Assembly: GCA_011390635.1 (NCBI GenBank)
Contig: JAABSA010000027.1
Span: forward strand, 1-52,416
From: Desulfotignum sp.
GTDB taxonomy: Bacteria; Desulfobacterota; Desulfobacteria; Desulfobacterales; Desulfobacteraceae
Length of the DNA stretch: 52,416 nucleotides
Direction of reading: 5' to 3'
The notes beneath the pieces are model-generated. The model was given only the letters and a program-made list of their open reading frames with translations. It did not search any database and was not told the origin of the DNA. The position numbers and the translations under genes were made by a program. Below, in pieces: positions 11,092-51,280 of the stretch (within the stretch, counting starts at the first letter, position 1; each line of letters begins with the position of its first letter).

Positions 11092-12516
11092 TCATTGAAG
11101 CCCGGGCTTAAACCGGTTTTTATCAATCCCCAGTTTTTTCATTTTCCCGTACAGGCCCCTGGGATGGATACCTGCCTTCTTTGCTGCTTCCCCCACCCGG
11201 CCCCGGGTTTTTTCAAGAACCATTTCCAGGTATTTTTTTTCCACCCGGGTGATCATTGCTGCTTTCACCTGATCAAGGGTCTGGCTGGTCCAGGTTTTTG
11301 GATCTGTTTCCAAAACACCCATCCAGTCCAGGGACAGATCCGGGTTTTCCTGAAATCCTGAAGGAAGATCCTGCAGGGTGATGCAGTCAGACCGGCACAA
11401 CAAAACCGCCCGTTCAATGACATTCATGAGTTCTCTGACATTTCCCGGCCAGGCATAATTGCACAGGGCATTAACTGCATCTTCTGAAAATCCGGTAATC
11501 TCCCTGCTGGTGCGCTGCGCCTGCTGGATAAGGAACTGTTCGGCCATGACCGGGATATCTTCTTTTCTCTGCCGCAAAGGCGGCAGGGTCAAGGTGATCA
11601 CCCCCAGTCGGTAGTACAGGTCCTGGCGGAAATTTTTATTTTTGATTTCCTGGTCCAGATCCTTGTTGGTGGCGGCAATAACCCGCACATCCACCCATAC
11701 GGGAGATTCCCCTCCCACCGGGATAAACTCGAAATCCTGGAGAACCCGGAGGAGTTTTGACTGTGTTTTCAAGGGCATCTCCCCGATTTCATCCAGAAAG
11801 AGAGTGCCCCCGTGGGCCAGTTCAAATGCCCCCCGCCGGGATCGGATGGCCCCGGTAAATGCCCCCTGCTCATGGCCGAACAATTCACTTTCCATGAGCT
11901 GATCCGGGATGGCCGCCATGTTCAGCGCGATAAACGGTCCACTGGACCGGTGGCTTTCCATATGAATGGCCTTGGAAAGGTGCTCTTTTCCCACACCGGT
12001 CTCTCCCTGGAGCAACAGACTGGCATCACTGGCAACAATCTGGCGGACCTCTTCCAAAAACAACTGCATATCTCTGCTGCTGGAAACAAAATCATGCAGT
12101 CTGGGCTGAATCCTGCCCCGGTGGTCAAACCGGTTCAGGTCATAAAACTGCTGCCGGGATGTCAGGGTGGTTTCAATGGCTTCCATCAGCTGGTCCGGCG
12201 GCAGGCCGGAATAGAGCACCATATCTGCACCTGCCCCTATAAGGGTGGCATGCTCTTTTGAAGACTCCCGGTCATCGAGAATAATGGTTATGGGTTTTTC
12301 CGGCAGATTATTGAGTATGGCAACACTGGCATCCACCGGTTTAGGAATTAAGGTCCGGCTGATGAGGAATACATCAGAGCAGCTTCGTACCAGATCCTGC
12401 CAGGCATTGTGCGGATCACGGAAAATTTTCAGCCGGATATCAGCCTGTGACAGTCGTTTTTCAATGGCAGCAACCAGTTTTTTTTCCTTTACAGCACATA
12501 CAAGCCGGGTCAGCAC
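11092..12516 (-). CDS. sigma-54-dependent activator with degenerate receiver domain
   Basis: The 474-residue protein begins with GTG (12514-12516) behind AGGAGG. Residues 1-120 have receiver-like spacing, but the phosphorylation site reads DVFLISRTLIP, with Ser at the expected Asp (residue 53), and the acidic N-terminal pair is absent (AVKEKK). It is thus a pseudo-receiver. The AAA+ domain (about 145-375) has Walker A GETGVGKE, the sigma-54-contacting GAFTGA loop, Walker B GTLFLDEIGEM and the arginine-finger region. A Fis-type helix-turn-helix ends the protein (GRVGEAAKKAGIHPRGLYGKMKKLG). It is transcribed away from the amine/ligase gene cluster at 13.0-17.1 kb, whose promoter looks sigma-54-dependent, so it is the natural candidate activator. 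Confidence 0.9.
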   Translation of the reverse strand: MLTRLVCAVKEKKLVAAIEKRLSQADIRLKIFRDPHNAWQDLVRSCSDVFLISRTLIPKPVDASVAILNNLPEKPITIILDDRESSKEHATLIGAGADMVLYSGLPPDQLMEAIETTLTSRQQFYDLNRFDHRGRIQPRLHDFVSSSRDMQLFLEEVRQIVASDASLLLQGETGVGKEHLSKAIHMESHRSSGPFIALNMAAIPDQLMESELFGHEQGAFTGAIRSRRGAFELAHGGTLFLDEIGEMPLKTQSKLLRVLQDFEFIPVGGESPVWVDVRVIAATNKDLDQEIKNKNFRQDLYYRLGVITLTLPPLRQRKEDIPVMAEQFLIQQAQRTSREITGFSEDAVNALCNYAWPGNVRELMNVIERAVLLCRSDCITLQDLPSGFQENPDLSLDWMGVLETDPKTWTSQTLDQVKAAMITRVEKKYLEMVLEKTRGRVGEAAKKAGIHPRGLYGKMKKLGIDKNRFKPGLQ

Positions 12517-36785: not shown

Positions 36786-37538
36786 TTATAAACTCTGGTT
36801 GATCTGCCTGGCTGCAGCCAGGGTCTGGTCAATAATGCCCGGCATCAGGTCGTCGGACATGCCGGCTTTGAACCCTACCACCCATAAAGCAGGCAGATAG
36901 CCGCCCCTGGAAGAAAGGCAGACTGCCACGGCCCGGACACCGGCAAGATATTCTTCATCATCCAGGGCATATCCCCTTTTTTTGACTGTCTGCAACTCTT
37001 CCAGATACATTGCCGGCTCCACAATGGTCCGGGATGTGAATCTCGGCAAAGGATGGTTTTTCAGGTAGGCTGCCGCCTCCGGTTTCGGCATGGCTGACAG
37101 AAACACCTTTCCCACGGCCCCGGCCAGAAGGGGCAGTGCCGTGCCAATGGGGGAGCTGATTTTGAAATCTTTGCGGGATTCCACAATATCAATGACCGTG
37201 ACATGATGGGCATTGCGTACGCCCAGAAATACCGATTCACCGCATTGTTCCATGAGATTTTCCATGGCCGGTCTGGCGGATTTTATGATATCCACCCGTT
37301 CATAAACTGCCTTGCCCAGTTCCATAAGGGTCAAACCGATGGTATAACGCTTGGAATCCGGGTTCCGGATAATGGCGCCCTGTTCTTCAAGTGCTGTGGT
37401 GATGCCGTGGACAGTGCTTTTGCTGATGCCAAGATCCAATGAAATGTCACTGATGCGCAGCCCTTTTTCAGACCGGGAGATTGCCTTGAGAATGTCAAAG
37501 GCTTTTTTCACAATGGGAGCCTGGTAGCGTTTGGTCAT
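36786..37538 (-). CDS. IclR-family transcriptional regulator
   Basis: The 250-residue protein starts at ATG 37536-37538, overlapping the TGA of the MscS fragment by one base. The N-terminal helix-turn-helix (VKKAFDILKAISRSEKGLRISDISLDLGISKSTVHGITTALEEQG) is followed by the IclR effector domain (GKAVYERVDIIKSARPAMENL ... VGKVFLSAMPKPEAAAYL ... GYALDDEEYLAGVRAVAVCL). These regulators respond to aromatic or short organic acids. It faces the redox operon across a 580-base region, but the sigma-54 signals there argue that operon is controlled by its own response regulator. Confidence 0.88.
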   Translation of the reverse strand: MTKRYQAPIVKKAFDILKAISRSEKGLRISDISLDLGISKSTVHGITTALEEQGAIIRNPDSKRYTIGLTLMELGKAVYERVDIIKSARPAMENLMEQCGESVFLGVRNAHHVTVIDIVESRKDFKISSPIGTALPLLAGAVGKVFLSAMPKPEAAAYLKNHPLPRFTSRTIVEPAMYLEELQTVKKRGYALDDEEYLAGVRAVAVCLSSRGGYLPALWVVGFKAGMSDDLMPGIIDQTLAAARQINQSL

Positions 37539-37774
37539 CAACGATTTTCCCCTTTCAATACCAGTCGGGTGATGGTTTCCAGCCGGTTTTCAGTTTCAGA
37601 CGGTGGTTCACCGGAAAGTTTACTCTGCCTGAGCAGGCGCTGTTCAAGCCGCTGCAACAATTTTTTCAAAATTCCCATGGCCAACCAGGCCAAAAGCAAA
37701 ACAATCAATATGCGAACGCATGTGAACAGAATTTCCCATCCAACTTCCTGGATCTGCTGCCATAAAGTATCCAA
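37538..37774 (-). pseudogene. truncated MscS-type channel, N-terminus only
   Basis: A 78-codon frame starts with TTG behind GAGGG. It has one membrane helix (ILFTCVRILIVLLLAWLAMGI) and a linker RLETITRLVL that in MscS-family proteins leads into the second and third helices. It stops there (KGENR), without the pore helix or the cytoplasmic vestibule. It overlaps the IclR gene by one base. A functional small protein is possible, but truncation is the simpler reading. Confidence 0.5.
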
Positions 37775-37833: not shown

Positions 37834-37848
37834 GATTCCCCGGGAATC
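37834..37848. promoter_or_regulatory. perfect 15-bp inverted repeat
   Basis: GATTCCCCGGGAATC is a perfect 7-1-7 inverted repeat just upstream of the 26-bp element, in the region between the IclR side and the redox operon. It may be an operator for the minus-strand genes or an extra activator site. Its role is unknown. Confidence 0.35.
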
Positions 37849-37860
37849 GCAGTGAAAATA

Positions 37861-37886
37861 TTGCACTGCATATTTTTTATTGCACC
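37861..37886 (+). promoter_or_regulatory. 26-bp upstream element, copy A
   Basis: The block contains TGCAC, GCATAT, TTTTA and a second TGCAC; TATTGCAC occurs twice 19 bases apart (37859-37866, 37878-37885). It agrees at 21 of 26 positions with copy B at 47451-47476. It lies about 170 bases upstream of the -24/-12 promoter at 38057, a typical enhancer position. I infer it is the binding site of the response regulator encoded at 45907-47298. Confidence 0.6.
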
Positions 37887-38056
37887 AAAATCAAATCAAC
37901 CTGCCCTGATCCGGATCTGTTATGATCTTTTGTTTTCCCGATTTCCTTGACTCAATGCATTATCAATGATTTATTATACCATATTTTCCCTGTTGAATGT
38001 ATTCTTTGTTATGGTTATCTGTTTTTTTGTCAATTTTATTCACGGAAACCATTCTC

Positions 38057-38072
38057 TGGCACATTTATGGCA
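38057..38072 (+). promoter_or_regulatory. sigma-54 promoter of the redox operon
   Basis: TGGCACATTTATGGCA matches TGGCAC-N5-TTGCA with one mismatch. GG is at 38058-38059 and GC at 38070-38071, with the correct spacing. Transcription should start near 38084, about 40 bases before the ATG at 38123, which also fixes that start against an earlier in-frame ATG. Confidence 0.75.
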
Positions 38073-38122
38073 AGAGAAACGCCACAAGTTTAAAAATGTT
38101 TGCAATAAGGAGACAAGAAATT

Positions 38123-40204
38123 ATGGATAAAGATGTATTCAGTTTGTGTTTCATGTGCTCGGTCAGATGTCCCATACAGGTTGGTGTCAAGGACGGGCAT
38201 GTGAACTGGATCCAGGGAAATCCCCATGTGGCGGGGATAGACGGCCGTTTATGTCCCAGAGGTTCTGCCGGCAAATCGCTGCTGTATGATGACCAGCGGC
38301 TCCAGTCCCCCCTTATCAGGGTTGGAGACAGAGGATCGGGCAACTGGCGCAAGGCTTCCTGGGAGGAAGCCCTTGACTATGTGGGAACCCGGCTCAAAGA
38401 AATAAAAGATACCCACGGCGGCCATGCCATTGCATTAGGCGAGCGCGCCCAGCTGGCTACCCATGTGAGCAAAACCTTTTTAAAGGCCCTGGGTTCCCCC
38501 AACTATTTCAGCCACGACGCTTTGTGCAAGGGATCCATGAACACGGCCTGCCGGAGCATGTTCGGTTACACAGACGGCCAGATGGGTATCAATTATGCCA
38601 ATACAAAACATATTGTTCTCTATGGCAGAAACATTTTTGAATCCATTAATGTCAAAGAGGTGAACACCCTCATGGATGCCCTGGAAAAAGGAGCCAAACT
38701 CACCTATATCGATCCAAGGGTCAATGTCACCGCCAGCAAGGCGCACCGGTACTGGATGATTCGGCCGGGTACCGACCTGGCCCTCAACTACGGACTGATC
38801 CACGTGATTTTGAAAGAACGTCTCTATGACGCGGGTTATATGGACAAATGGGCTCATGGGCTCACTGAATTACGTGATTTTATCAAGGAATACACCCCGG
38901 AATGGGCGGAAAACGAAACCGGTATCCCTGCCGGGGAAATCAAGTCGCTGGCCAGGGAAATCAGCAAGGACAAGCCGGCGGTTATTTTCCATTACGGGTA
39001 TCGGTGCGCCAACCACCAGAATGAAATTTATATGCGCCGTTCCATTCTTATGCTCAACGCCCTTATGGGATCCGTGGAAGCAAAAGGCGGCATTTTCTTT
39101 AAAAAAGGCCCTGGTGCGGAAGGCGGCAAACCAGCCAGAAAACTGGTTGAACAGGAATTCCCCAAAATTACGGTCCCCCGGTTTGACAAGGTCGGGACTC
39201 CGGATTTTCCGCTGCCGGATCCGGCCCACGGGGTGGCCCAGATCCTTCCCCATGCCATCCTTACCGAGGATCCCTATCCCATCAAGGCCTTGATCAACTT
39301 TCGGCTGGATCCCCTCATGTCCATTGCCGACACCAATAACACCAAAAAGGCCCTGGACAAACTGGATCTGATTGTAACCATTGATATCAACTATTCAGAC
39401 ATTGCCTGGTATTCGGATGTTATTCTGCCCGAATCCACTTACCTGGAACGTACCGACTGCATCCAGCAGATGAACGGGCTCAAACCCATGATGTTTCTGC
39501 GGGAAAAAGCAGTGGAACCCCGGTACGACACTTTGGAAGGCGCCATCATCCTCAAACGCATAGGAGAGCGCCTGGGCATCGGGGAGTTTTTTCCCTATGA
39601 CACCATGGATGAACTGGTGGACTGGCAATTGGAAGGTACCGGGTTTACCAGAGAAGATTTTGCCAAAAAAGGATTTGTCAGTTACGGCAAATCCCCCATA
39701 TTCTGGGATAGGGACGATATCCCCTTCAAGACCCCGTCAGGAAAAATCGAGTTTACATCATCTCTGCTGGAAGATGCGGGATTTCCCTCCTTGCCGCCCT
39801 ATGCGCCCGTGAATGAACCGCCGGACAGACAATTTCGACTGGTGGTGGGCCGCACAGGGCTTCACACCCATGTATCCACCCAGAATGTGCCGTATCTCAA
39901 TGAACTGATGAAAGAAAACCTGCTGTGGATAAACAACACAAAAGCGGCGGATCTGGGTATCAGTGACGGGGCCGTTGTGGAGGTGTCCTCTGCCTGCGGC
40001 AAAGGACGGATCAAGGCATTTGTGACAGATCTTATCCATCCGGAAGCGGTGTTCATGGTCCACGGATTCGGACACGAGGCCAAGCTGGCAAAACGGTCCT
40101 ATAACCAGGGCCTTTCCGATGCCCTGCTCCAGGAAAATCTGTATGACAAAGTCGGGGGAAGCCCGGCGTTTCATGACACTTTTGTTACCGTGACCCCGGT
40201 GTAA
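38123..40204 (+). CDS. cytoplasmic molybdopterin oxidoreductase (thiosulfate/polysulfide reductase-like)
   Basis: The 693-residue enzyme starts behind AAGGAG, with no Tat signal, so it is cytoplasmic. An N-terminal [4Fe-4S] site (Cys9, 12, 16, 44: CFMCSVRC ... LCPRG) precedes the Mo-bisPGD domains. GSPNYFSHDALCKGSM places a probable Mo-ligand Cys135, as in the PsrA/PhsA branch of the DMSO reductase family. Later markers are LTYIDPRVNVTASKAH, MRPGTD-like MIRPGTDLAL, and the C-terminal VVGRTGLHTHVSTQN cofactor domain. Relatives reduce thiosulfate, polysulfide, tetrathionate or arsenate. The partner subunit is the next gene, and there is no membrane anchor of the NrfD type, so electrons must go to the cytoplasmic flavoprotein and Fe-S proteins encoded after it. 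Confidence 0.85.
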   Translation: MDKDVFSLCFMCSVRCPIQVGVKDGHVNWIQGNPHVAGIDGRLCPRGSAGKSLLYDDQRLQSPLIRVGDRGSGNWRKASWEEALDYVGTRLKEIKDTHGGHAIALGERAQLATHVSKTFLKALGSPNYFSHDALCKGSMNTACRSMFGYTDGQMGINYANTKHIVLYGRNIFESINVKEVNTLMDALEKGAKLTYIDPRVNVTASKAHRYWMIRPGTDLALNYGLIHVILKERLYDAGYMDKWAHGLTELRDFIKEYTPEWAENETGIPAGEIKSLAREISKDKPAVIFHYGYRCANHQNEIYMRRSILMLNALMGSVEAKGGIFFKKGPGAEGGKPARKLVEQEFPKITVPRFDKVGTPDFPLPDPAHGVAQILPHAILTEDPYPIKALINFRLDPLMSIADTNNTKKALDKLDLIVTIDINYSDIAWYSDVILPESTYLERTDCIQQMNGLKPMMFLREKAVEPRYDTLEGAIILKRIGERLGIGEFFPYDTMDELVDWQLEGTGFTREDFAKKGFVSYGKSPIFWDRDDIPFKTPSGKIEFTSSLLEDAGFPSLPPYAPVNEPPDRQFRLVVGRTGLHTHVSTQNVPYLNELMKENLLWINNTKAADLGISDGAVVEVSSACGKGRIKAFVTDLIHPEAVFMVHGFGHEAKLAKRSYNQGLSDALLQENLYDKVGGSPAFHDTFVTVTPV

Positions 40205-40225
40205 TTTACCATAAGGAGGCAATGA

Positions 40226-40741
40226 ATGAGCCAGTATTACCTGTTCCAGGACAGTAAAAAATGCATCGGGTGTCATGCCTGTGAGATCCAGTGCAAAACC
40301 AATAAAGACCTGCCTGAAGGCCCCAAACTCTGCCAGATTATTCAGGTGGGACCAAAATTTATCAACAACCTGCCCAAGATGTCGTTTATTTTCATGCCCT
40401 GTTTTCATTGTGAAAACCCCTGGTGCGTGTCTGCCTGTCCCACTGGTGCCATGCAGCAAAGATCTTCGGACGGCATCGTGTTTGTACAAAAAGATCTGTG
40501 CGTTGGGTGCAAAACCTGTGTGTCCGCCTGTCCGTGGGGTGCACCCCAGTGGAATCCGGACACCGGGAAAGTGGAAAAATGTGATTATTGCAAAGACCGG
40601 GTAGACCAGGGTCTGGAACCTGCCTGTGTCACCACCTGCACCACCGGATGCCTGAAATTCGGGAAAGTGGAAGATATGACCCAGATCCGGCGGCAGCGCC
40701 ATGCCGAATCCGTGGCATCCCTTGAGAACAGCAGTTTTTAA
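40226..40741 (+). CDS. four-cluster ferredoxin-like electron-transfer subunit
   Basis: The 171-residue protein is a DmsB/PsrB-type subunit. Successive motifs are CIGCHACEIQCK, CFHCENPWCVSACPTGAM, CVGCKTCVSACPWGAP and CDYCKDRVDQGLEPACVTTCTTG, enough for four [4Fe-4S] clusters. It carries electrons to or from the molybdopterin subunit. It lies 21 bases after that gene, behind AAGGAGG. It has no signal peptide. Confidence 0.92.
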   Translation: MSQYYLFQDSKKCIGCHACEIQCKTNKDLPEGPKLCQIIQVGPKFINNLPKMSFIFMPCFHCENPWCVSACPTGAMQQRSSDGIVFVQKDLCVGCKTCVSACPWGAPQWNPDTGKVEKCDYCKDRVDQGLEPACVTTCTTGCLKFGKVEDMTQIRRQRHAESVASLENSSF

Positions 40742-40755
40742 AAGGAGCGTACCCC

Positions 40756-42921
40756 ATGGCCAAAGACACCTGTCCGGTTCAGTCCACCCTGCAATATCTG
40801 TCTGAGCGTATTGCATCCGGTGTCCTGACAGACCCCAAGGTGCGGCGGATATGCGAGTCCATCCGGATGCTGGTGGAGGAGATATCACTGGGAGAAGCCG
40901 GTGATGGTCATATGGCCGCCATTGACGACCTGATGACGGAATTTGAAAACAGGACCCCGGATGACGAAGCTGTCAAGACCCGGGATCATCTGAAACAGGT
41001 TCTGTCAGACCACAGAGAAGTGTTTGTCAGTCACATTGAAACCCGGAACTGCCCCTCCCATGACTGCGGTGTCATAGCCCCGTCTCCCTGCCAGATGGCC
41101 TGTCCCGCCGGCATTGATGTACCAACCTACCTGGCGCTGATTGCCGAAGGAAAAGATGACCAGGCCATCGCCGTGATCCGGGAAGACAATCCCCTTCCCT
41201 GGGTCTGCGGCCTGGTGTGCACCAGGCCCTGTGAAATGATGTGCGTCAGGGGGCGTATCGACACCCCTATTTCCATCAAATTTCTCAAGGCTTTTGCCGC
41301 GGAGCGGGCGTTGTCGGACCGGCGGTATATTAATCCAAAACCGGCCCCGCCCAACGGAAAACGGATCTGTGTGGTGGGAGCCGGCCCCGGTGGGCTGTCC
41401 TGCGCCTATTACCTGGCCTTGATGGGATATAAGGTGGATGTGATCGAAGCCCTGCCGTTTGCCGGCGGCATGCTCATGGTGGGCATTCCCCGGTACAGGC
41501 TGCCCCGGGAGGTGATTGACCGGGAAGTGGCCATGATAGAAGATTTGGGGGTGACATTTTCCTTCAACACCCGGTTCGGTAAGGATGTCACCTATGAAGA
41601 CATGAAGGACAGCGGCACGGATGCCTTTTTTCTGGCCATCGGTGCCCACAAAGCATGGGATCTCGGCATCAAAGGGGAAACAGATTTCCCCAAGGTAATT
41701 GATGCCATAAGTTTTTTAAAGAATGTGGCTATAGGGGACCGCCATGCCCCGGGCAAGCATGTGGTGGTCATCGGCGGCGGAAATGTGGCCATTGATGCCG
41801 CCAGAACCAGTCTGCGCCTGGGAGCGGAAAAGGTTACCATTGCATACCGCAGATCCAGAGAACAGATGCCCGCCGATATCGAGGAAGTGGAACAGGCGGA
41901 AGAAGAAGGCATTGCGTTTTCCTTTCTCACCATTCCTACCCAGATTGCAGGCGATGGCGGTATTATCACCGGACTTGCCTGCATCAAGGCAGAACTGATC
42001 GCAAAAAAAGGCACGGACCGCCTGGCACCGGTTCCCATCCTGGGAAAAGAGTTCACCATCCAGGCGGATGCCGTCATATCCGCCATCGGACAGTATGTGG
42101 ATGATACCGGCATGACTGCATTCGATGCCGTGAACTGGACCCGCAGAGGCACCATTGAAGTCAACCATGCCTCAATGGAAACCAGCATGCCAGGGGTATT
42201 TGCAGCAGGGGATGCGGTATCAGGTCCTGCAACGGTCATAGAGGCCATCGGCGGCGGCAAACGGGCGGCCGATGCCATCCACCGTCACCTGACCGGCATG
42301 CCCCAGCCCAGAATGCCCAAGATTCCGGTACGCCGCCGCAAAGTACCCATGATCGAAATGACGGCAGCTGAAAAAATGCGGCTTTCACGGCCGTCCATGC
42401 CCATGCTCAATGTGGACAGAAGAAGAACCACGTTTCAGCAGGTGGAACTGGGGTATGATGAAGCAGCAGTGCGCAAAGAAGCCCGGCGGTGCCTGCGGTG
42501 CGATGTGTGCAGAAGATGTGGCAAATGTGTGGAAATCTGCCGGGACAAAATGGGCATTGACGCCCTGCATCTGGGATACCTGGATTTTGACCACCCGGTG
42601 AAAACCGATTTCCGGATGACAGCGGAAAACTGTATCACCTGCGGGGCATGTGCAGCCAATTGTGAAAACAATGCCATGACCCTGGAAGAAAAAGACGGCA
42701 AGCGCATGCTCAAACTCTGCGGCACCATACTCAACGAGCAGGAGATTCAGACCTGTGATTCCTGCGGGGCAAAACTGCCCTCTGCCCAGTATATGGCCTA
42801 TATTTTGGACAAAACCGCCGACCTGACCCAGAAGGCGGAGCGGCGGCTTTTGTGCACCGACTGCCAGCGCAAGTTGTCAGCCAAAAATCATGTACCGACC
42901 CGGCCGGTCAACCCGGCATAA
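40756..42921 (+). CDS. GltD-like FAD/NAD(P) oxidoreductase with Fe-S and Zn-ribbon ends
   Basis: The 721-residue protein resembles the small subunit of glutamate synthase. A cysteine-rich N-terminal region (CQMACPAGIDVPTY ... CGLVCTRPCEMMC) binds Fe-S clusters. The FAD motif is GAGPGGLSCAYYLA and the NAD(P) motif GGGNVAIDAARTSLRLGA, closing with the GDAVSGPATVIEAIGGGKRAAD segment. A C-terminal extension carries CLRCDVCRRCGKCVEIC and CITCGACAANC, and a probable zinc ribbon (CDSCG ... CTDCQRK). About 110 N-terminal residues of unknown role come first. It is likely to connect NAD(P)H or ferredoxin with the molybdopterin enzyme, perhaps by bifurcation. It is not a glutamate synthase, as no GltB is present. 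Confidence 0.85.
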   Translation: MAKDTCPVQSTLQYLSERIASGVLTDPKVRRICESIRMLVEEISLGEAGDGHMAAIDDLMTEFENRTPDDEAVKTRDHLKQVLSDHREVFVSHIETRNCPSHDCGVIAPSPCQMACPAGIDVPTYLALIAEGKDDQAIAVIREDNPLPWVCGLVCTRPCEMMCVRGRIDTPISIKFLKAFAAERALSDRRYINPKPAPPNGKRICVVGAGPGGLSCAYYLALMGYKVDVIEALPFAGGMLMVGIPRYRLPREVIDREVAMIEDLGVTFSFNTRFGKDVTYEDMKDSGTDAFFLAIGAHKAWDLGIKGETDFPKVIDAISFLKNVAIGDRHAPGKHVVVIGGGNVAIDAARTSLRLGAEKVTIAYRRSREQMPADIEEVEQAEEEGIAFSFLTIPTQIAGDGGIITGLACIKAELIAKKGTDRLAPVPILGKEFTIQADAVISAIGQYVDDTGMTAFDAVNWTRRGTIEVNHASMETSMPGVFAAGDAVSGPATVIEAIGGGKRAADAIHRHLTGMPQPRMPKIPVRRRKVPMIEMTAAEKMRLSRPSMPMLNVDRRRTTFQQVELGYDEAAVRKEARRCLRCDVCRRCGKCVEICRDKMGIDALHLGYLDFDHPVKTDFRMTAENCITCGACAANCENNAMTLEEKDGKRMLKLCGTILNEQEIQTCDSCGAKLPSAQYMAYILDKTADLTQKAERRLLCTDCQRKLSAKNHVPTRPVNPA

Positions 42922-42932
42922 AGGAGGCTGTT

Positions 42933-43154
42933 ATGGTGTTTAAACGCGGCAATCGTGTGGAAGTGTTCCAGGCATCGACAGATGAGGCCTGGGAATCCTA
43001 TATGAATGACTTTATCGGTGCCCACGGGGTGATAACAGACCCTGATTCCTCCATCAATGATCCAGATGACCTCATCGAGGTGAGTCTCCAGGGCAAAGGT
43101 ACCCACCGGCTGCCCCAGGACTGCCTCCGTCTCCTGGATGAAACAACAGGGTGA
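42933..43154 (+). CDS. 73-residue hypothetical protein of the redox operon
   Basis: The small protein starts behind GGAGG, 11 bases after the flavoprotein gene. It reads MVFKRGNRVEVFQASTDEAW, then YMNDFIGAHGVITDPDSSI and ends LPQDCLRLLDETTG. The GVxxD ... EVxLxGxGTHxLPxDCL pattern suggests a small beta-barrel (SH3-like) domain, a guess from the pattern. A maturation or assembly role in the redox complex is possible. I do not recognise a named family. Confidence 0.6.
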   Translation: MVFKRGNRVEVFQASTDEAWESYMNDFIGAHGVITDPDSSINDPDDLIEVSLQGKGTHRLPQDCLRLLDETTG

Positions 43155-43161
43155 AAACGAC

Positions 43162-43920
43162 ATGATTGAAATTACCATCAATAAACAACCCATTACCTGC
43201 ACCGAAGGCCAGACCGTGCTGGAAGCGGCCCGGAGTCACAATATCAGCATCCCCCATCTGTGTTTTCACCCGGCATTGAAACCGTCCGGTGCCTGCCGGG
43301 TCTGCGGTGTGGAAATAACCTCTCCCACCGGCAGACAGACCGTGATGCTCTCTTGTGTGCTGAAAGTAAAACCGGGCCTGGTGGTACTCACCGATTCTCC
43401 CCTGGTCAGATCCCACCGGCAGAAGGCGTTTGTCCGGTTGTTCCGCATGGCACCCCAGGCCCACCGGATACGGGACCTGGCCCACAGATACCGGGTGGAT
43501 CTGCCCCCGGAACCGGACGGGTGCATCAGATGCCGGCTGTGCATACGGGTCTGCCAGGAAATCGTCAAGGTGGGGGCCCTGAAAATGGAAAAAACTGCAG
43601 CCGGCGGACAGGTAGCCAAGGGAGACGGCCAGTGCATCGGCTGCGGTACATGTGCCAATCTGTGCCCCACCAGTGTGATCCAGGTGACGGACCATGACGG
43701 CGTCAGAACGGTTGCCATCCAGGGACGTATGGTGGGGCAACTGCCTCTGGAGCGGTGTGAAGCCTGCGGCCGCATGTATGCCACCGCTGATTTTTTGAAC
43801 CGGGTATCCCATATCAGTCCGGGCCACCCGGACACAAAGGAACACCACAACCTCTGCCCGGCCTGTGTCAAACTCATGTCCACCCGGGCCATGACCGAAA
43901 AAGCACATTTGAAAAAATGA
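43162..43920 (+). CDS. HoxU/NuoG-like [2Fe-2S] and [4Fe-4S] protein
   Basis: The 252-residue protein starts at ATG 43162 (MIEITINKQPITCTEGQTVLEAA). The N-terminal plant-type [2Fe-2S] domain has CFHPALKPSGACRVCGVEI and a later SCVLKV Cys. Next come the His/Cys cluster region of the NuoG/HoxU type and a two-[4Fe-4S] ferredoxin domain (CIRCRLCIRVCQEIV and CIGCGTCANLCPTSV). A C-terminal zinc ribbon (CEACG ... CPACVKLM) resembles the one in the flavoprotein of the same operon. It would link NAD(P)H-side and molybdenum-side electron flow. It overlaps the following gene by four bases. Confidence 0.88.
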   Translation: MIEITINKQPITCTEGQTVLEAARSHNISIPHLCFHPALKPSGACRVCGVEITSPTGRQTVMLSCVLKVKPGLVVLTDSPLVRSHRQKAFVRLFRMAPQAHRIRDLAHRYRVDLPPEPDGCIRCRLCIRVCQEIVKVGALKMEKTAAGGQVAKGDGQCIGCGTCANLCPTSVIQVTDHDGVRTVAIQGRMVGQLPLERCEACGRMYATADFLNRVSHISPGHPDTKEHHNLCPACVKLMSTRAMTEKAHLKK

Positions 43921-44393
43921 ACCGGAAGGTGTGGCACATCAGCCTGATCCCGGCATGTTTGCTGGTACTGCCGACACCGGCCTTTGCGATCCAGCTGCAT
44001 ACCGGCAATGCCGGCATTATTGCCCATCAGATCGGGCATCTGTTTTTTTTGTTTGCCATGGTAGCACTCATGTTCACCATCAACAGCCAGGGACTGATCC
44101 GGCAGAAGGGATGGCGCCAGATTCAATACGGAGCCCTGTTTTTTATCTTCTGGAACCTGGATACCCTGGTGGCCCATTTTCTGGACAACCAGATCGAGGT
44201 GGTGCGTATCGAAACCTTGAGCATCTCAAAAATGGCCATTGTGACCCAGTCCGACTCCCAGCTGCTGGCAGTGATCTACTATTTTCTCAAAATGGATCAC
44301 CTGTGGTGTGTTCCGGCCATGATATTTCTGTTCATGGGTCTGGACAACCTGCTCAAGGCCCAGCGGCAGGGCGGGAAAGGGGCCGGACAATGA
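43917..44393 (+). CDS. membrane protein next to the histidine kinase
   Basis: The 158-residue protein has a signal or anchor sequence (MNRKVWHISLIPACLLVLPTPAFA) and about three further membrane segments, for example HLFFLFAMVALMFTI and QYGALFFIFWNLDTLVAHFL. It shares four bases with both neighbours (ATGA overlaps), so expression is tightly coupled to the kinase. I know no family name. A sensory or accessory role with the kinase is inferred only from position. Confidence 0.6.
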   Translation: MNRKVWHISLIPACLLVLPTPAFAIQLHTGNAGIIAHQIGHLFFLFAMVALMFTINSQGLIRQKGWRQIQYGALFFIFWNLDTLVAHFLDNQIEVVRIETLSISKMAIVTQSDSQLLAVIYYFLKMDHLWCVPAMIFLFMGLDNLLKAQRQGGKGAGQ

Positions 44394-45907
44394 CCGCCAA
44401 TCTGCCCATTCTGCTCGTGGACGTGCTGGGATCCGTGATCATGGTGGTGCTGGGAGTGCTGTCCCTGTTCAAGGCCAAGTCCCTGCGGGACCTTGACCCA
44501 GACAACGTGGTATTCCTTTATTTGATCTGGATCTGTGCCGGCTTCACCATATTTGCGGTATCCCGGTCTTTCAGCCATATCCTGCGCCAGTTTCTGGTCC
44601 TCACCGGCAGCGGAGATATCTGGAGCAGCATCGGTCCTTTCACCGGTGCCGTCAATACCATCACCTTCATGCTGGTGGGTACGGTAACCCTGTTTTTCAA
44701 CCAGAGCTGGCGTATCAATGAAAAAGTGCTCTCCGCCAAACAGAAACATCAGGAAACCAGTGCCAAGCTCCTGGAACTGAACCAGACCCTTGAGCACAAG
44801 GTGGTGGAAAGAACCGAAATGCTCACCAGCTCCGAACACAAGGCCCGCCGAATTTTCGAACACTCCCTGGATACTATTGTGGTCACGGATCCGGCCTTTG
44901 TCATCGCAGAGATCAACCAGGCAGGCGTAGAACTGACCGGGTACAGGAAATCAGATATCCTGGACAATCAAATGGGGCTCAAAGATTTTCTGGCGGTCAG
45001 GTCGGAACGGGAAAAAATTCTGGGACTTCTGGAAACCGATGAATACATCCTGAACGAAGAGGCCGATTTCCTGCGGGCGGACCAATCCTGTGTCCGGGTA
45101 CTCATCACGGGCGGAGTGGATTACGGAGCGTTCGGCTGCGGCAAAACCTTTCATTTCATCATCAAGAACATCAATGATAAAAAACAGATGGAACAGCAGA
45201 TCGCCCAGGCGGACAAGCTGGCGGCCCTGGGTGAGCTGTCAGCCGGGGTGGCCCATGAGATCAACAATCCTCTGGGCATCATTCTGGGGTATACCCAGCT
45301 GATGCTCAAACAGCCGGGAGACCATGAAGAAGATCTGAAAACCATTGAAAAGCATGTAAAAAACTGTAAAATTGTTGTTTCTGACCTGTTGACTTTTGCC
45401 CGGAAAGGGTCCACAAAAATGCAGTCCATTGATGTATGCAAGGTGGTGGATGATGTGATTAATTTTCTGGCCAATCATTCAGATTTCAGGAATGTTGAAG
45501 TGATTCCCCCACAACCGTGTACCCGGCCGTTGACGGTTTTTGGGAATGAACAGGAACTTGCCCAGGTCATCATCAACCTGATGATCAACGCCTGCCACGC
45601 TGTGGAAAAAAAGGGCTGCATCCTGGTGGTAACTGGTCAAGATGACCAGGACCAGATCCTGATAACTATAAAGGACAACGGCACCGGCATTCGGAAAAAG
45701 GATTTTTCCCGGATTTTTGATCCGTTTTTCACCACCAAACCAGTGGGCCAGGGCACCGGCCTCGGACTTTCCGTTGGATACGGCATTATCCGGCGCCACG
45801 GGGGCGATATCACTGTGCGGAACCGAAAAGATAAAGGTGCGGCGTTTACCATCAGCCTGCCCAAAGCCCGATCACCACAAGACACCTTGGACAGAGAGGA
45901 GACCTGA
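44390..45907 (+). CDS. membrane-bound PAS histidine kinase
   Basis: The 505-residue protein has about four N-terminal membrane helices (ILLVDVLGSVIMVVLGVLSLF; VFLYLIWICAGFTIFAVS; TITFMLVGTVTLFF), a coiled segment, then a PAS domain (about 150-265). HisKA has the phospho-acceptor in SAGVAHEINNPLGIILGYTQLML, followed by the ATPase boxes NLMINACHAV, KDNGTGIRKKDF and GQGTGLGLSVGYGI. There is no receiver. It pairs with the response regulator whose ATG overlaps its stop. It presumably senses a signal linked to the redox operon or its permease. Confidence 0.88.
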   Translation: MTANLPILLVDVLGSVIMVVLGVLSLFKAKSLRDLDPDNVVFLYLIWICAGFTIFAVSRSFSHILRQFLVLTGSGDIWSSIGPFTGAVNTITFMLVGTVTLFFNQSWRINEKVLSAKQKHQETSAKLLELNQTLEHKVVERTEMLTSSEHKARRIFEHSLDTIVVTDPAFVIAEINQAGVELTGYRKSDILDNQMGLKDFLAVRSEREKILGLLETDEYILNEEADFLRADQSCVRVLITGGVDYGAFGCGKTFHFIIKNINDKKQMEQQIAQADKLAALGELSAGVAHEINNPLGIILGYTQLMLKQPGDHEEDLKTIEKHVKNCKIVVSDLLTFARKGSTKMQSIDVCKVVDDVINFLANHSDFRNVEVIPPQPCTRPLTVFGNEQELAQVIINLMINACHAVEKKGCILVVTGQDDQDQILITIKDNGTGIRKKDFSRIFDPFFTTKPVGQGTGLGLSVGYGIIRRHGGDITVRNRKDKGAAFTISLPKARSPQDTLDREET

Positions 45908-47298
45908 TGACCGCCCATATCCTGGCAGTGGACGATGAAAAAGACATGACCCGTCTGCTGAAACGCACCCTGGAATCAGAAATTGACTGTACGGTTTCCA
46001 TGGCGTTTTCCGGGGAAATGGCCTTGAATATTTTGGAACAGGGGTCCTGGGATCTGGTGATCTGTGATATCCGCATGCCTGGCATGGACGGGTTTGCGCT
46101 GCTGGAACAGATAAAAAACCGGTATCCGGATCTCACCGTGGTGATGCTCACAGCCTTCGGCAATATCGATTCCGCTGTCACCGCCATTAAAAGCGGGGCC
46201 TATGACTTCATTGCCAAGCCCTTTGAACAGGATGAGATCATATTCAAGATCAGAAAAGCCCTGGAGCGCAGCCGGCTGCTTTTGGAAAACAAGCAGCTGC
46301 TAAAGGCACGGGACAAGGATTTTTCTCCCCTGGTGGGCCGCAGCTCTGCCATGGAAAAAGTATTTGAAAAAATTGCCCTGGTGGCATCTTCTGATGTCAC
46401 CGTGCTTATTACCGGGGAATCAGGAACCGGCAAAGACCTCACCGCCCGGTCCATTCACCGCCGCAGCCAGCGCAGCAAGGCACCGTTCATCCCGGTCAAC
46501 TGCCCCACCATTCCAGAACATATCCTGGAAAGCGAGCTGTTCGGCCACAGAAAAGGGGCCTTTACCAGCGCGTATCAGGACAAAAACGGATTGTTCCAGG
46601 AGGCGGACAAAGGGACCATCTTCCTGGATGAAATCGGGGACATCGGATTGTCCATTCAGACCAAGCTGCTGCGGGTGATCCAGGAAAAAGAGGTGAAGCC
46701 TTTAGGGGATACCAGGGTTCAGAAAGTGGATGTCCGCATCATTGCCTCCACCAACCAGGATCTCAAAGAAAAAATTGCCCGAAAAGAATTCAGAGAGGAT
46801 CTTTTCTACCGCCTGTCAGTCATATCCATCGAACTGCCGCCCCTGCGGGAGCGGATTACCGATATCCCGCTTCTGGCTGATCATCTGGTGGCCAAAAACT
46901 GTGAAAAACTGAACAAACCCTTGAAAACCATTTCCGAAAATGTCATGGACCTGCTCTTGAAACATCCCTGGAAAGGCAATGTCCGGGAACTGGAAAACGT
47001 GCTGGTCCAGGGGATTCTCTATGCAAAAACAGAGGTGATCCGCAGATCCGACATCCCTGTTTCCCCTGTTAGCACCGATGTCGGCCCTGACACCTGCCTG
47101 GATGCCCATATCATGGACATGCCCTACAAAGCAGCCAAAGAGACCATACTGAACCGGTTCAACCATGATTATGTGGGGACACTCCTGTCCATGACCAACG
47201 GCAATATCACCCGGGCAGCCAAACGCTGTGGTCTGGACCGCCAGGCGTTGCAGCAGATCATGAAGCGGTTTGCCATTGACCCGGAAGATTTTCGATAG
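45907..47298 (+). CDS. sigma-54-dependent response regulator (NtrC/AtoC type)
   Basis: The 463-residue protein has a true receiver with DD pair and Asp in LVICDIRMPGMDG, then an AAA+ domain with Walker A GESGTGKD, the sigma-54 loop GAFTSA (variant of GAFTGA), Walker B GTIFLDEIGDI, and a Fis-type C-terminal helix-turn-helix (TRAAKRCGLDRQALQQIMKRF). It is the cognate regulator of the kinase just upstream. Two -24/-12 promoters, before the redox operon and before the permease gene, share an upstream element and are its likely targets. Confidence 0.9.
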   Translation: MTAHILAVDDEKDMTRLLKRTLESEIDCTVSMAFSGEMALNILEQGSWDLVICDIRMPGMDGFALLEQIKNRYPDLTVVMLTAFGNIDSAVTAIKSGAYDFIAKPFEQDEIIFKIRKALERSRLLLENKQLLKARDKDFSPLVGRSSAMEKVFEKIALVASSDVTVLITGESGTGKDLTARSIHRRSQRSKAPFIPVNCPTIPEHILESELFGHRKGAFTSAYQDKNGLFQEADKGTIFLDEIGDIGLSIQTKLLRVIQEKEVKPLGDTRVQKVDVRIIASTNQDLKEKIARKEFREDLFYRLSVISIELPPLRERITDIPLLADHLVAKNCEKLNKPLKTISENVMDLLLKHPWKGNVRELENVLVQGILYAKTEVIRRSDIPVSPVSTDVGPDTCLDAHIMDMPYKAAKETILNRFNHDYVGTLLSMTNGNITRAAKRCGLDRQALQQIMKRFAIDPEDFR

Positions 47299-47450
47299 CG
47301 ATACTGCCAAGCCGATGCCCGGCACCAGTATTGACAGTACTTCCGGTGAATTAGTGCCCTACTCTTCAATTATTGTTAAAAATACAAAGGGCAGCACCCG
47401 GGTTACGGGTTTCCGGCGTTAGAAGCCATATATTTTGTGCAATATAATAC

Positions 47451-47476
47451 ATGCACCGCATATATTTTACTGCACT
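47451..47476 (+). promoter_or_regulatory. 26-bp upstream element, copy B
   Basis: Copy B carries TGCAC, GCATAT, TTTTA and TGCAC in the same order and spacing as copy A (37861-37886), 21 of 26 identical. A further inverted half-site GTGCAATA lies just upstream (47438-47445). It stands about 108 bases before the sigma-54 promoter at 47584. The rest of the 47299-47710 gap holds no gene. Confidence 0.6.
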
Positions 47477-47583
47477 CCCCCTTCCCATAAAAACCATTCC
47501 CTGCCGGCAGCGGCCCGTCATTTTCATAAATAACTCATATAAAACCGGGTAGTTATGGAACAAAAACACGGGCTGCGCAGGTG

Positions 47584-47599
47584 TGGCACCAATATTGCT
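47584..47599 (+). promoter_or_regulatory. sigma-54 promoter of the TauE/SafE permease gene
   Basis: TGGCACCAATATTGCT is a perfect match to TGGCAC-N5-TTGCW (GG 47585-47586, GC 47597-47598). Transcription would begin near 47611, about 100 bases before the ATG. Confidence 0.85.
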
Positions 47600-49337: not shown

Positions 49338-49844
49338 ATGGATTCCATACAGGGTATACTCCATTTCATCGATCCGGTGCTGATCTATCCCTACCGGATG
49401 TTTGAAAACCCCATGGCAGGCTGGTGGGCAGGCACCTTCTGCCTGGCGGCCTGGGCCGTGCTCATCGGGGAGATCACCTTGGCTGTTGCCGGGCGGATCA
49501 ACCGGTCCGCGGTGTCCACCAACCTGGATGACACCATGTATTACCATGAACAATCCATGAAAGCCAAGCAGGCCGGGGATGAAAAAGCCTATAAAGGCAT
49601 CAACAAACTGGCCAACGAGGCCTACGGCAAATCCTTTTTCCTGCTCATGGCCATGGGCATGGCAGCCCTGTGGCCGGCATTTTTTGCCGTTGCCTGGCTG
49701 GACGAACGGTTCGGGGATATCAGCTTCACCATGCCGGCCTGGACCGGGGGGCTGGAATTGAATTTTGTCGCCCCGTTCATCCTGATCTATATCTCGCTGC
49801 GGGTTGCCTGGGCCAAGACCAAAAAAAGATTCTCCCGGCTTTAA
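49338..49844 (+). CDS. small membrane protein, DUF106-like
   Basis: The 168-residue protein has membrane spans near residues 28-50 (GWWAGTFCLAAWAVLIGEITL), 98-118 (FFLLMAMGMAALWPAFFAVAWL) and 145-160. A charged helical stretch lies between the first two (TMYYHEQSMKAKQAGDEKAYKGINKLANEAYGK). The layout of membrane helix, amphipathic helix and membrane helix resembles the DUF106/Oxa1-related group, but this is a weak fold guess. It lies downstream of the permease and may work with it. It ends overlapping the kinase gene on the other strand by four bases. Confidence 0.55.
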   Translation: MDSIQGILHFIDPVLIYPYRMFENPMAGWWAGTFCLAAWAVLIGEITLAVAGRINRSAVSTNLDDTMYYHEQSMKAKQAGDEKAYKGINKLANEAYGKSFFLLMAMGMAALWPAFFAVAWLDERFGDISFTMPAWTGGLELNFVAPFILIYISLRVAWAKTKKRFSRL

Positions 49845-51280
49845 CAGGCTGAACACACAGCCTTGACATGGTAAAAACCGGTAAAATCATTTCTGCCCAC
49901 AAACCCCATTTCCAGATTCAGGTACCAGGCTGACACAAACGTGCTTTTGTCAGCACTCCACAGCCATTTCTGTTCCCCATCAAACACCGGTGACATGCAA
50001 TGGTCCCGGCCCTTGGCCAAGGGTGCGGCAAGGGTGAGCAGTTCATGGATGGTGGGCAGGCGCCATGCGGCATATCCCCCAAACTGCCGGAAGATCAACT
50101 GTTCCACATAGGTTTTTGCCTGAAGCCAGTTAACAGGAAACCAGATGCCGGACTGCTGCCACACCAGACCGGTATGCCTGTCCTGCACAAGGCCCTCTTC
50201 GATCAATACAAAATCATTGGCACCATATCGGCGGGGCTGCATGAACCGGTCCAGACCAAAAAAGGCACGGGCCTGTTTCAAAGGGATTTTTTCAGGAACA
50301 GCCCGCACCGGAACAGGCTTTCTCCTGTCAGATGCTGGCCGTCCTGAGTCCTGCCCGTCACTTTTTTCACCGCCGTATGCAGCCGGATCTCCTTCTGACT
50401 GCTGGGCGTTTTCCGGCACATGACCGTTTTCCTGTTCCAACGCTACCGGCATGGAACAGATTTTCTCTTTTTTTTCCTTCCAGTCCCGGGCCAGTTGTTC
50501 CAGGTCCCGGCACATGGTATCCGCTCCCTGGAACCGCCCGGCCGGATCCGGATCAAGGGCTTTTGCAAAAAACCGGTCCCAGGACATATCCAGATCCGGG
50601 TTCATATGTGATGCCGGGGAACCGCTCTTCTGGGGCAGACGGCCGGTGAGCATCTTGTAGAGCATGATGCCCAGCGCGTAAAGATCTGCAGTAACACCTA
50701 CGTTATCCGGATCTGCCTCCTGCTCCGGGGCTGCGTAATATGGGGAGCCCACCCGGATACTCCCATGCCGTCTGCGCCATTCATCCTGTCGCAGGGACAG
50801 GCCGAAATCACAGATTTTTACGGTATCCAGGTCTGTGATCAACATATTGGCAGGCTTGATATCTCTGTGAACAATACCGGAAAAATGAAGGCACACAAGG
50901 CCTTTTAATATCTGGGTGGTATACTGCACCGCCTTTTCAATGGGAACAACCCGGGTATCATCTTCTTCAAAGGATTCCCCCATAAGAGTTCCCAGATTGT
51001 TGCAAAAATAATCCATGACATAATACAGCCGGTTGTCTGTACGTCCAAAATCCAGAATATCCACCACATGGGGATGGCGGATGGCAGCCATGGTGACGGC
51101 TTCTTTTGTGAACATATCTTCCAGCTCTTTTTTTGGTGTGAGGCTGGCCAGAAGGGGAGAAGGCTCCAGCAGTTTCAAGGCGGCAATTTTTTTGGTGACA
51201 GGATAGGCGATCTTATATATCCTGCCCATACCCCCTTTTCCCAGCAGGCCTGTGATGGTGAATCTGCCGATTTTTTTCAT
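49841..51280 (-). CDS. Ser/Thr protein kinase with C-terminal DUF1566-like domain
   Basis: The 479-residue protein has a Hanks-type kinase domain at about 6-270: GLLGKGGMGRIYK (P loop), Lys in IAALKLLE, HRDIKPANMLI (catalytic loop), CDFGLS (DFG), and SPYYAAPEQ (APE). A linker rich in Pro, Glu and Arg follows, then a C-terminal domain at about 365-479 with VQDRHTGLVWQQSG, WRLPTIHELLTL and FDGEQKWLWSADKS. The last is the Lcl/DUF1566 pattern, often extracellular, but no membrane segment is seen here. It is probably cotranscribed with the phosphoesterase gene upstream (16-base gap). Confidence 0.9.
   Translation of the reverse strand: MKKIGRFTITGLLGKGGMGRIYKIAYPVTKKIAALKLLEPSPLLASLTPKKELEDMFTKEAVTMAAIRHPHVVDILDFGRTDNRLYYVMDYFCNNLGTLMGESFEEDDTRVVPIEKAVQYTTQILKGLVCLHFSGIVHRDIKPANMLITDLDTVKICDFGLSLRQDEWRRRHGSIRVGSPYYAAPEQEADPDNVGVTADLYALGIMLYKMLTGRLPQKSGSPASHMNPDLDMSWDRFFAKALDPDPAGRFQGADTMCRDLEQLARDWKEKKEKICSMPVALEQENGHVPENAQQSEGDPAAYGGEKSDGQDSGRPASDRRKPVPVRAVPEKIPLKQARAFFGLDRFMQPRRYGANDFVLIEEGLVQDRHTGLVWQQSGIWFPVNWLQAKTYVEQLIFRQFGGYAAWRLPTIHELLTLAAPLAKGRDHCMSPVFDGEQKWLWSADKSTFVSAWYLNLEMGFVGRNDFTGFYHVKAVCSAC

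Follow-up and report, generated by a model that had tools for sequence, protein, structure and literature searches.

Gene content of the locus

We analysed 52,416 nucleotides of the Desulfotignum sp. contig JAABSA010000027.1 (the window), which encode a group of redox enzymes, a small membrane protein, a sensor kinase and a response regulator, followed by a permease gene (Table 1). The molybdopterin (Mo) oxidoreductase resembles thiosulfate and polysulfide reductases of the PhsA/PsrA type: its nearest solved relative is 2vpw, a 'thiosulfate reductase' (E = 5.9e-116), and its best NCBIfam match is PhsA, with 620.7 bits, which is below the curated cut-off of 694. The protein may work like PhsA/PsrA though it is not filed as one. 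Unlike these reductases, it shares its operon with Fe-S proteins and a GltD/NfnA-like NAD(P) flavoprotein. In Pfam and NCBIfam, none of the operon's products matched any of the known quinone-reactive membrane subunits (PsrC/NrfD-type anchor). A cytoplasmic NAD(P)-linked reaction is suggested by the lack of such a match. By eye, no Tat-like N-terminus was seen in the Mo oxidoreductase. The genome paper of D. phosphitoxidans lists a thiosulfate reductase PhsAB (PMC4046663), which does not imply identity with the operon described here.

Table 1. Features of the redox locus and the adjacent permease gene, in window coordinates
Feature	Position	Strand	Remarks
Double dyad of 39 bp (site A), proposed UAS (enhancer) for the redox operon	37847..37885 (core 37849-37883)	+	37.8 bits
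-24/-12 promoter TGGCACATTTATGGCA	38057..38072	+	one mismatch, in the -12 part
PhsA/PsrA-like molybdopterin oxidoreductase (693 aa)	38123..40204	+	family matches
4Fe-4S (DmsB-like) electron-transfer subunit	40226..40741	+	
FAD-NAD(P) oxidoreductase, GltD/NfnA-like, with an additional Fe-S part	40756..42921	+	
73-aa protein without Pfam or NCBIfam match	42933..43154	+	found in 27/40 family loci
2Fe-2S/4Fe-4S protein, HoxU/NuoG N-terminus-like	43162..43920	+	
Membrane protein of 158 aa, invariant His residues; proposed to partner the kinase in sensing	43917..44393	+	
Sensor histidine kinase, PAS-HisKA-HATPase	44390..45907	+	hydrophobic N-terminus by eye
NtrC-type sigma-54 response regulator	45907..47298	+	GAFTSA at residues 217-222; C-terminal helix DRQALQQIMKR
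Weak terminator-like hairpin between regulator gene and site B	47408..47427	+	1 found, 0.7 expected (chance level)
Double dyad of 39 bp (site B), proposed enhancer for the permease gene	47437..47475 (core 47439-47473)	+	38.8 bits
-24/-12 promoter TGGCACCAATATTGCT	47584..47599	+	perfect; TGGCA[CT]-N5-TTGCT in 6/6 loci (L033-L038)
TauE/SafE (TSUP) permease, 437 aa	47711..49024	+	PF01925, 65.2 bits (cut-off 32.6)

The 158-aa membrane protein has no family match, and a fold search against the PDB gave nothing at E<=0.001 (mean pLDDT of the structure model, 81.8). Therefore, its proposed role as a sensor partner is deduced from gene order: the gene adjoins those for the kinase and the regulator even where a locus lacks the enzyme genes (L053, L056-L058, L063 and L069). 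It could be a membrane part of the enzyme instead, yet it stays with kinase and regulator at these enzyme-less loci. The His and ATP-binding motifs of the kinase are kept in its relatives. The regulator contains receiver and Sigma54_activat domains; among 39 aligned family members the receiver Asp and Walker A are found in all 39 and Walker B in 38. It falls short of NtrC (nitrogen regulator I) itself, scoring 419.4 bits against a curated cut-off of 558.6. The first-pass annotation had called this the only complete kinase/sigma-54 regulator pair nearby, which is about right for the ten window ORFs whose domains were scanned: the second sigma-54 activator of the window (11092-12516, minus strand) has no receiver-domain match, and a hybrid kinase is encoded near it (7934-10024, minus strand).

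A double-dyad element upstream of the operon and the permease gene

A shared 26-bp element had been annotated at 37861-37886 (copy A) and 47451-47476 (copy B). Both copies lie at these positions, 9.6 kb apart, and agree in 21 of 26 bases as counted by eye. The element is real, but it is only a part of a longer unit. When we scanned 40 loci from the same taxonomic family, matches on the two strands overlapped with an offset of 15 bases. Therefore, the true unit is a 39-bp near-palindrome composed of two 20-bp dyads, with the core GCA-N10-TGC-N3-GCA-N10-TGC. The dyads are of the type GYGCA-N10-TGCRC, their centres are 19 bp apart, and their inner halves are joined as TGC-N3-GCA.

The element is restricted to these two places in the assembled genome (4.09 Mb in 98 contigs, 96.4% complete). 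A 24-base consensus of A and B, allowing up to three mismatches, matched only A and B in the window and likewise in the whole assembly (no match in 100 shuffles of the window or in the reversed genome control). The exact bare core pattern also occurs only at the two sites. Across 59 genomes the bare core is present in 30, some of these matches being unlike the element, and its reversed control gave no match at all. Finally, in a genome-wide search with a sequence profile derived from 27 sites, the next-best place after A and B scored only 14.8 bits. A common occurrence at unrelated loci would have spoken against a regulon; with exactly two copies in the assembly, the regulon reading survives.

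This profile (A1) was built from 27 of 39 element rows, and its E-values are rough. Left out were both copies of L035, which nearly equal those of L034, copy A of L038, and the rows of L039, L051, L056, L057, L069, L070, L071 (two) and L072. Elements of L081, L083 and L084 had been skipped earlier as repeats of those of L054, L070 and L053, respectively. Wherever the regulator could be read, the source loci of A1 encode the D type described below.

A palindrome of this kind could also act as an RNA or DNA structure, i.e. a terminator, an attenuator or a small mobile repeat, and not as an enhancer. The folding of the 39-bp palindrome as RNA indeed beats that of shuffled sequences (z = -2.4 for A and -4.0 for B). 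But the element is located upstream of both promoters and outside their transcripts, two copies in the genome exclude a repeat family, nine of the 12 invariant columns of the element alignment are half-site bases, and terminator-like matches by the sites do not exceed chance. A structural role is therefore very improbable, and we rejected the hairpin or terminator reading on the grounds of position and copy number despite the better-than-shuffle folding.

Sigma-54 promoters downstream of the element

Both annotated -24/-12 promoters were found as described, with one mismatch at 38057 and none at 47584. They start 171 bases (A) and 108 bases (B) after the ends of the 26-bp copies, in good agreement with the 100-170 bases given before. 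One-mismatch matches to the sigma-54 consensus occur in the window at chance level (three found, 3.24 expected), so that promoter 38057 owes its credibility to its conservation in relatives. The form TGGCAC-N5-T(G/A)GC is common to the operon promoters of all six loci L033-L038, and the 'mismatch' is therefore itself conserved. Moreover, TGGCA[CT]NNTTATNGCW fits 17 of 25 non-permease promoters. The genome contains rpoN, represented by one PF04552 match (E = 1.5e-59).

We then counted -24/-12 promoters (TGGCAC-N5-TTGCW, with GG and GC invariant and at most two mismatches) within 300 nt of the element. Such a promoter was found for 32 of 38 element rows, which include near-duplicates (one further row is too short downstream). 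On the reverse strand, none of the 38 rows had one, and the rate in shuffles was 2.3%. The six rows without a match belong to L051, which has a weak element, L053, L059, L061, L066 and L067. The last four are Desulfobacter-type loci in which the double dyad stands without a recognisable sigma-54 promoter; L068 from the same genus has one. Measured from start to start, element and promoter are separated by 147-150 nt (permease) and 207-223 nt (operon) within the genus of the window, and by 114-296 nt in the other 18 promoter-bearing rows, nine of which fall at 256-262 nt. In nine loci outside the model, picked from 19 for having a site, a promoter follows 165-263 nt further on in all nine. Thus, the element occupies the position expected of an enhancer of a sigma-54 regulon, upstream of the promoter and at looping distance.

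Conservation of the element in Desulfotignum and other genera

Six loci of the same genus (L033-L038, of which L034 and L035 are near-identical; same-genus contigs, n = 5, from G013, G020, G041, G045 and G053) have kept the gene order and the two sites with their promoters. The short contig L039 holds only site B, at its end. A second site before the permease gene in the same locus was seen only within this genus; in other genera, the TauE gene is mostly found between the Fe-S and 158-aa genes.

In these other genera, the operon may begin with Mo, FeS or GltD, and the site usually stands before this first redox gene. We extended 18 loci upstream and found the element before the Mo gene in L073-L078 and L080, before GltD in L079, and, in a form with one extra base, before the Mo gene of L082. 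The full element was not found in the upstream-extended loci L085-L090, and L085 and L086 carry a single dyad ~267 nt before the Mo gene. Further elements precede the Mo gene in L126, L130, L133, L135, L138 and L140, the FeS gene in L054, L070, L136 and L142, and GltD in L134. An element of at least 30 bits is present in 21 of 68 loci; several of the 21 are contigs also used in the model, and many of the remaining loci are short or perhaps do not reach the operon head. Of the 40 family loci, 33 contain a TauE-type match, whose subfamily often differs (26-95% identity). More than any other feature, this repeated association hints at a sulfur anion. The motif scan of this genome and its relatives, which had been proposed as a check, thus revealed a joint conservation, throughout Desulfobacterales, of the site, the sigma-54 promoter, the gene content and the regulator.

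These data bear on a further explanation, namely that the likeness of A and B is due to chance or to a recent local duplication without function. Their identity of only 21/26 and the chance level of one-mismatch sigma-54 matches in the window would fit this view. However, the consensus never occurred in 100 shuffles, and the element is conserved across genera with diverged spacers. The comparative data already contradict this explanation, to which we assign practically no weight.

Some sites were found in other surroundings. A further Mo gene of G009, at a distance of 22 kb, carries a site of its own (L130). In L127 and L139, sites lie by TauE and DUF169 as well as PPDK-like and phosphatase genes. 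Further sites are located by genes for a phosphonate-binding protein and a chemoreceptor (L137), by mscS (L132), and at a place where no regulon gene matched (L144). The sites at these other kinds of genes may be extra regulon members or accidents.

Association of the site with the sensor-regulator cassette

We next asked how the site is distributed relative to the cassette of 158-aa protein, kinase and regulator. The 158-aa protein is encoded in 42 of 59 genomes of the family, and a search of 17 genomes with the regulator (E<=1e-150) added two more cassette genomes, giving 44. Counting a site anywhere in the genome, strong sites (E<0.001) are present in 41 of the 44 genomes with the cassette and in three of the 15 without it (Fisher p 1.5e-7, phylogeny ignored). 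The corresponding numbers are 43/44 and 6/15 at E<0.01, and 35/44 and 3/15 at E<1e-5. Three cassette genomes (G008, G023 and G027) have only weak sites, none of them at E<0.001.

The cassette-less genomes with a site were inspected individually. In G028 the site precedes a Mo gene that matches residues 3-520 only, and no regulator was matched at E<=1e-150. G031 has kept the site, and its Mo match, judged by eye, ends soon after the start codon. The sites of G028 and G031 look like relics of lost operons. In G057 the contig ends within the Mo gene. Conversely, in three genomes (G047, G051 and G058) the locus of the cassette operon contains no site (L064, L065 and L060). The sites of these genomes are found next to TauE-type genes at a distance of 0.2-2 Mb; the neighbours were identified by Pfam for L127 of G047 only, where DUF169 and PPDK-like genes lie beside the TauE-type gene.

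The DNA-binding helix of the regulator was read by eye, and Pfam HTH_8 gave no match. Very little variation was seen in the recognition helix, (D/E)RQALQQ(I/V): RQALQQ is identical in the 38 regulators that reach it, except for one A to G exchange. The first position divides the regulators into 35 with DRQ and 23 with ERQ, and an element of at least 30 bits accompanies 20 of the 35 and one of the 23, respectively. This D/E difference is no more than suggestive, and we do not count it as proof: the profile derives solely from DRQ loci, contigs vary in length, and relatedness is uncontrolled.

The element might instead be bound by another protein, either a different activator of sigma-54 or a redox or sulfur regulator of global scope, with the regulator of the operon acting elsewhere. 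The genome offers candidates, with 48 sigma-54 activator-domain matches, and both the three genomes with sites far from a site-less cassette operon and the few sites by unrelated-looking genes such as L137 would agree with it. But the only two sites of the genome are both at this cassette, sites track the cassette over 59 genomes, and the recognition helix hardly varies in the regulator family. We therefore regard a different binder as unlikely.

A probable dedicated sigma-54 regulon

Taken together, we consider it very likely that the element acts as the enhancer in a dedicated sigma-54 regulon, in which the NtrC-type regulator of the operon activates both the redox operon and the permease gene. 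The kinase, probably aided by the 158-aa membrane protein encoded immediately upstream, would sense a signal and phosphorylate the regulator. The latter would bind the two adjacent 20-bp dyads at each site, form an AAA+ ATPase ring, loop to the sigma-54 RNA polymerase downstream and open the promoter. Phosphorylation, binding, ring formation and looping are the general picture of NtrC-type activators. From site A, the PhsA/PsrA-like Mo enzyme, the Fe-S and NAD(P)-flavin subunits, the kinase and the regulator would be expressed, including the regulator's own gene and hence with positive autoregulation; from site B, the TauE-type permease gene would be switched on. The regulon proposed in the first-pass annotation (redox enzymes, sensor, regulator and TauE/SafE permease) is thus supported as a prediction from sites, promoters, gene order and their joint conservation, which we observed directly. 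A role in the reduction or export of sulfur compounds, suggested by the enzyme and permease families, is a weaker inference.

The proposed regulon is a new and well-conserved example of an already known type, the sigma-54 enhancer regulon, and as such an ordinary kind of gene switch. The enhancer consensus of NtrC-type activators is TGCACC-N5-GGTGCA. Like such enhancers, which usually come in pairs, the element consists of inverted repeats with TGCAC-like half-sites. It differs in its GCA-N10-TGC spacing and in the joining of the two dyads by three bases.

The closest parallels are the two-component sigma-54 regulons of Desulfovibrio vulgaris Hildenborough (Kazakov et al. 2015, PMC4641369). 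According to the text of that study, the activator gene often adjoins the target operon, as it does here, a conserved site lies upstream of -24/-12 promoters, the regulons of most activators comprise one to four operons, and nine sigma-54 operons encode TSUP or PSE permeases. In contrast to our work, that study covers Desulfovibrionales, and the likeness is drawn from its text. The words TauE, molybdopterin, TGCA, thiosulfate and Desulfobacter are absent from its main text. A targeted literature search found no paper on such a regulon in Desulfobacterales. Our analysis provides a precise candidate binding site and a two-target regulon for this order. If the prediction is correct, a Mo-enzyme complex, a membrane protein and a TauE-type permease would be tied to one signal, and the identity of the inducer would help to assign all three.

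More tentatively, the locus could encode a three-part sensor, widespread in Desulfobacterales and made up of the histidine-rich 158-aa protein, the kinase and the regulator, whose sigma-54 contact loop departs from the canonical glycine. It would respond to a sulfur compound and, via the paired dyads, induce a cytoplasmic NAD(P)H-linked Mo reductase and a sulfur-anion exporter. In this possible scenario, which we hold to be rather less probable than not, thiosulfate, polysulfide or sulfite would elicit a dedicated response. The variant loop described below would then represent a loosened control step like that of the NorR bypass mutants.

A natural variant of the GAFTGA loop

GAFTGA itself was seen in none of the loops read from the regulator family: every ortholog whose loop could be read has GAFT(N/S/H/D/Q)A. 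Among 39 aligned regulators, including that of the window, we found GAFTNA 30 times, GAFTSA eight times and GAFTHA once. In an overlapping set of 58, the variable position is N in 35, H in 11, S in eight, D in one and Q in one, and the loop was not found in two. In NorR, Asn or Asp in place of the second Gly is reported to give full signal-free activity and Gln or Ser partial activity, and residues outside the list of active ones, including His, are described as non-functional (PMC2941729). Most of the regulators studied here thus naturally carry a residue that activates NorR (Asn, Asp, Gln or Ser). However, 11 of the 56 loops have His, which is among the substitutions reported as non-functional in NorR, and the loops described here are known from sequence. 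On the other hand, D. vulgaris has natural GAFTDA and GAFTHA activators, which are treated as compatible with activation in the text of PMC4641369. In view of these activators and the NorR data, the loop variant is probably tolerated; this analogy proves neither loss nor gain of function. The conserved non-GAFTGA loop would be a natural counterpart of the step studied by mutation in NorR. Within the genome, in 39 other activator domains (the 48 matches minus the two of the window and seven weak ones), the loop position is Gly in 35, D or H in two and not resolved in two.

Gene context of the double dyad

We compared the genes next to the 39-bp double dyad, the proposed enhancer of the redox operon (site A, 37847-37885), in loci of related genomes. 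In four Desulfobacter-type loci (L059, L061, L066, L067), the double dyad lies between the genes for the molybdopterin oxidoreductase and the 4Fe-4S subunit, and no σ54 promoter was recognisable at it. In genera other than Desulfotignum, both L127 and L139 have PPDK-like and phosphatase genes beside the element, and in L127 a TauE-DUF169 pair is also found there. These genes are possible further regulon members; for L128, L129, and L141, which also carry the element, the surroundings were judged solely from position, ORF size, and tblastn matches.

Just upstream of site A, a divergent ORF resembles only the initial 70-odd codons of an mscS-type channel, and an IclR gene directly follows this fragment. 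The channel is a 304-aa ORF in the relatives L037 and L132, with a Pfam match observed for L132.

Signalling proteins

The canonical GAFTGA loop was absent from all orthologs of the σ54 response regulator in which the loop was read, its second glycine being replaced by N, S, H, D, or Q. For the second σ54 activator in the window, no receiver domain was found; a hybrid kinase is encoded nearby (7934-10024).

The membrane protein encoded directly before the sensor kinase gene is predicted to be helical. Neither a family search nor a comparison with the PDB returned any match, and His 28, 37, 41, 87, and 128 are invariant among the 17 aligned sequences.

Features discussed in this section
Feature	Position	Strand	Remarks
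Second σ54 activator	11092-12516	minus	loop GAFTGA
ORF divergent from site A	about 37538-37774	minus	mscS-type similarity, N-terminal part only
158-aa membrane protein	43917-44393	plus	without family match
σ54 response regulator	45907-47298	plus	loop GAFTSA, residues 217-222, σ54 contact
ORF joining protein kinase and Lcl C-terminal domains	49841-51280	minus
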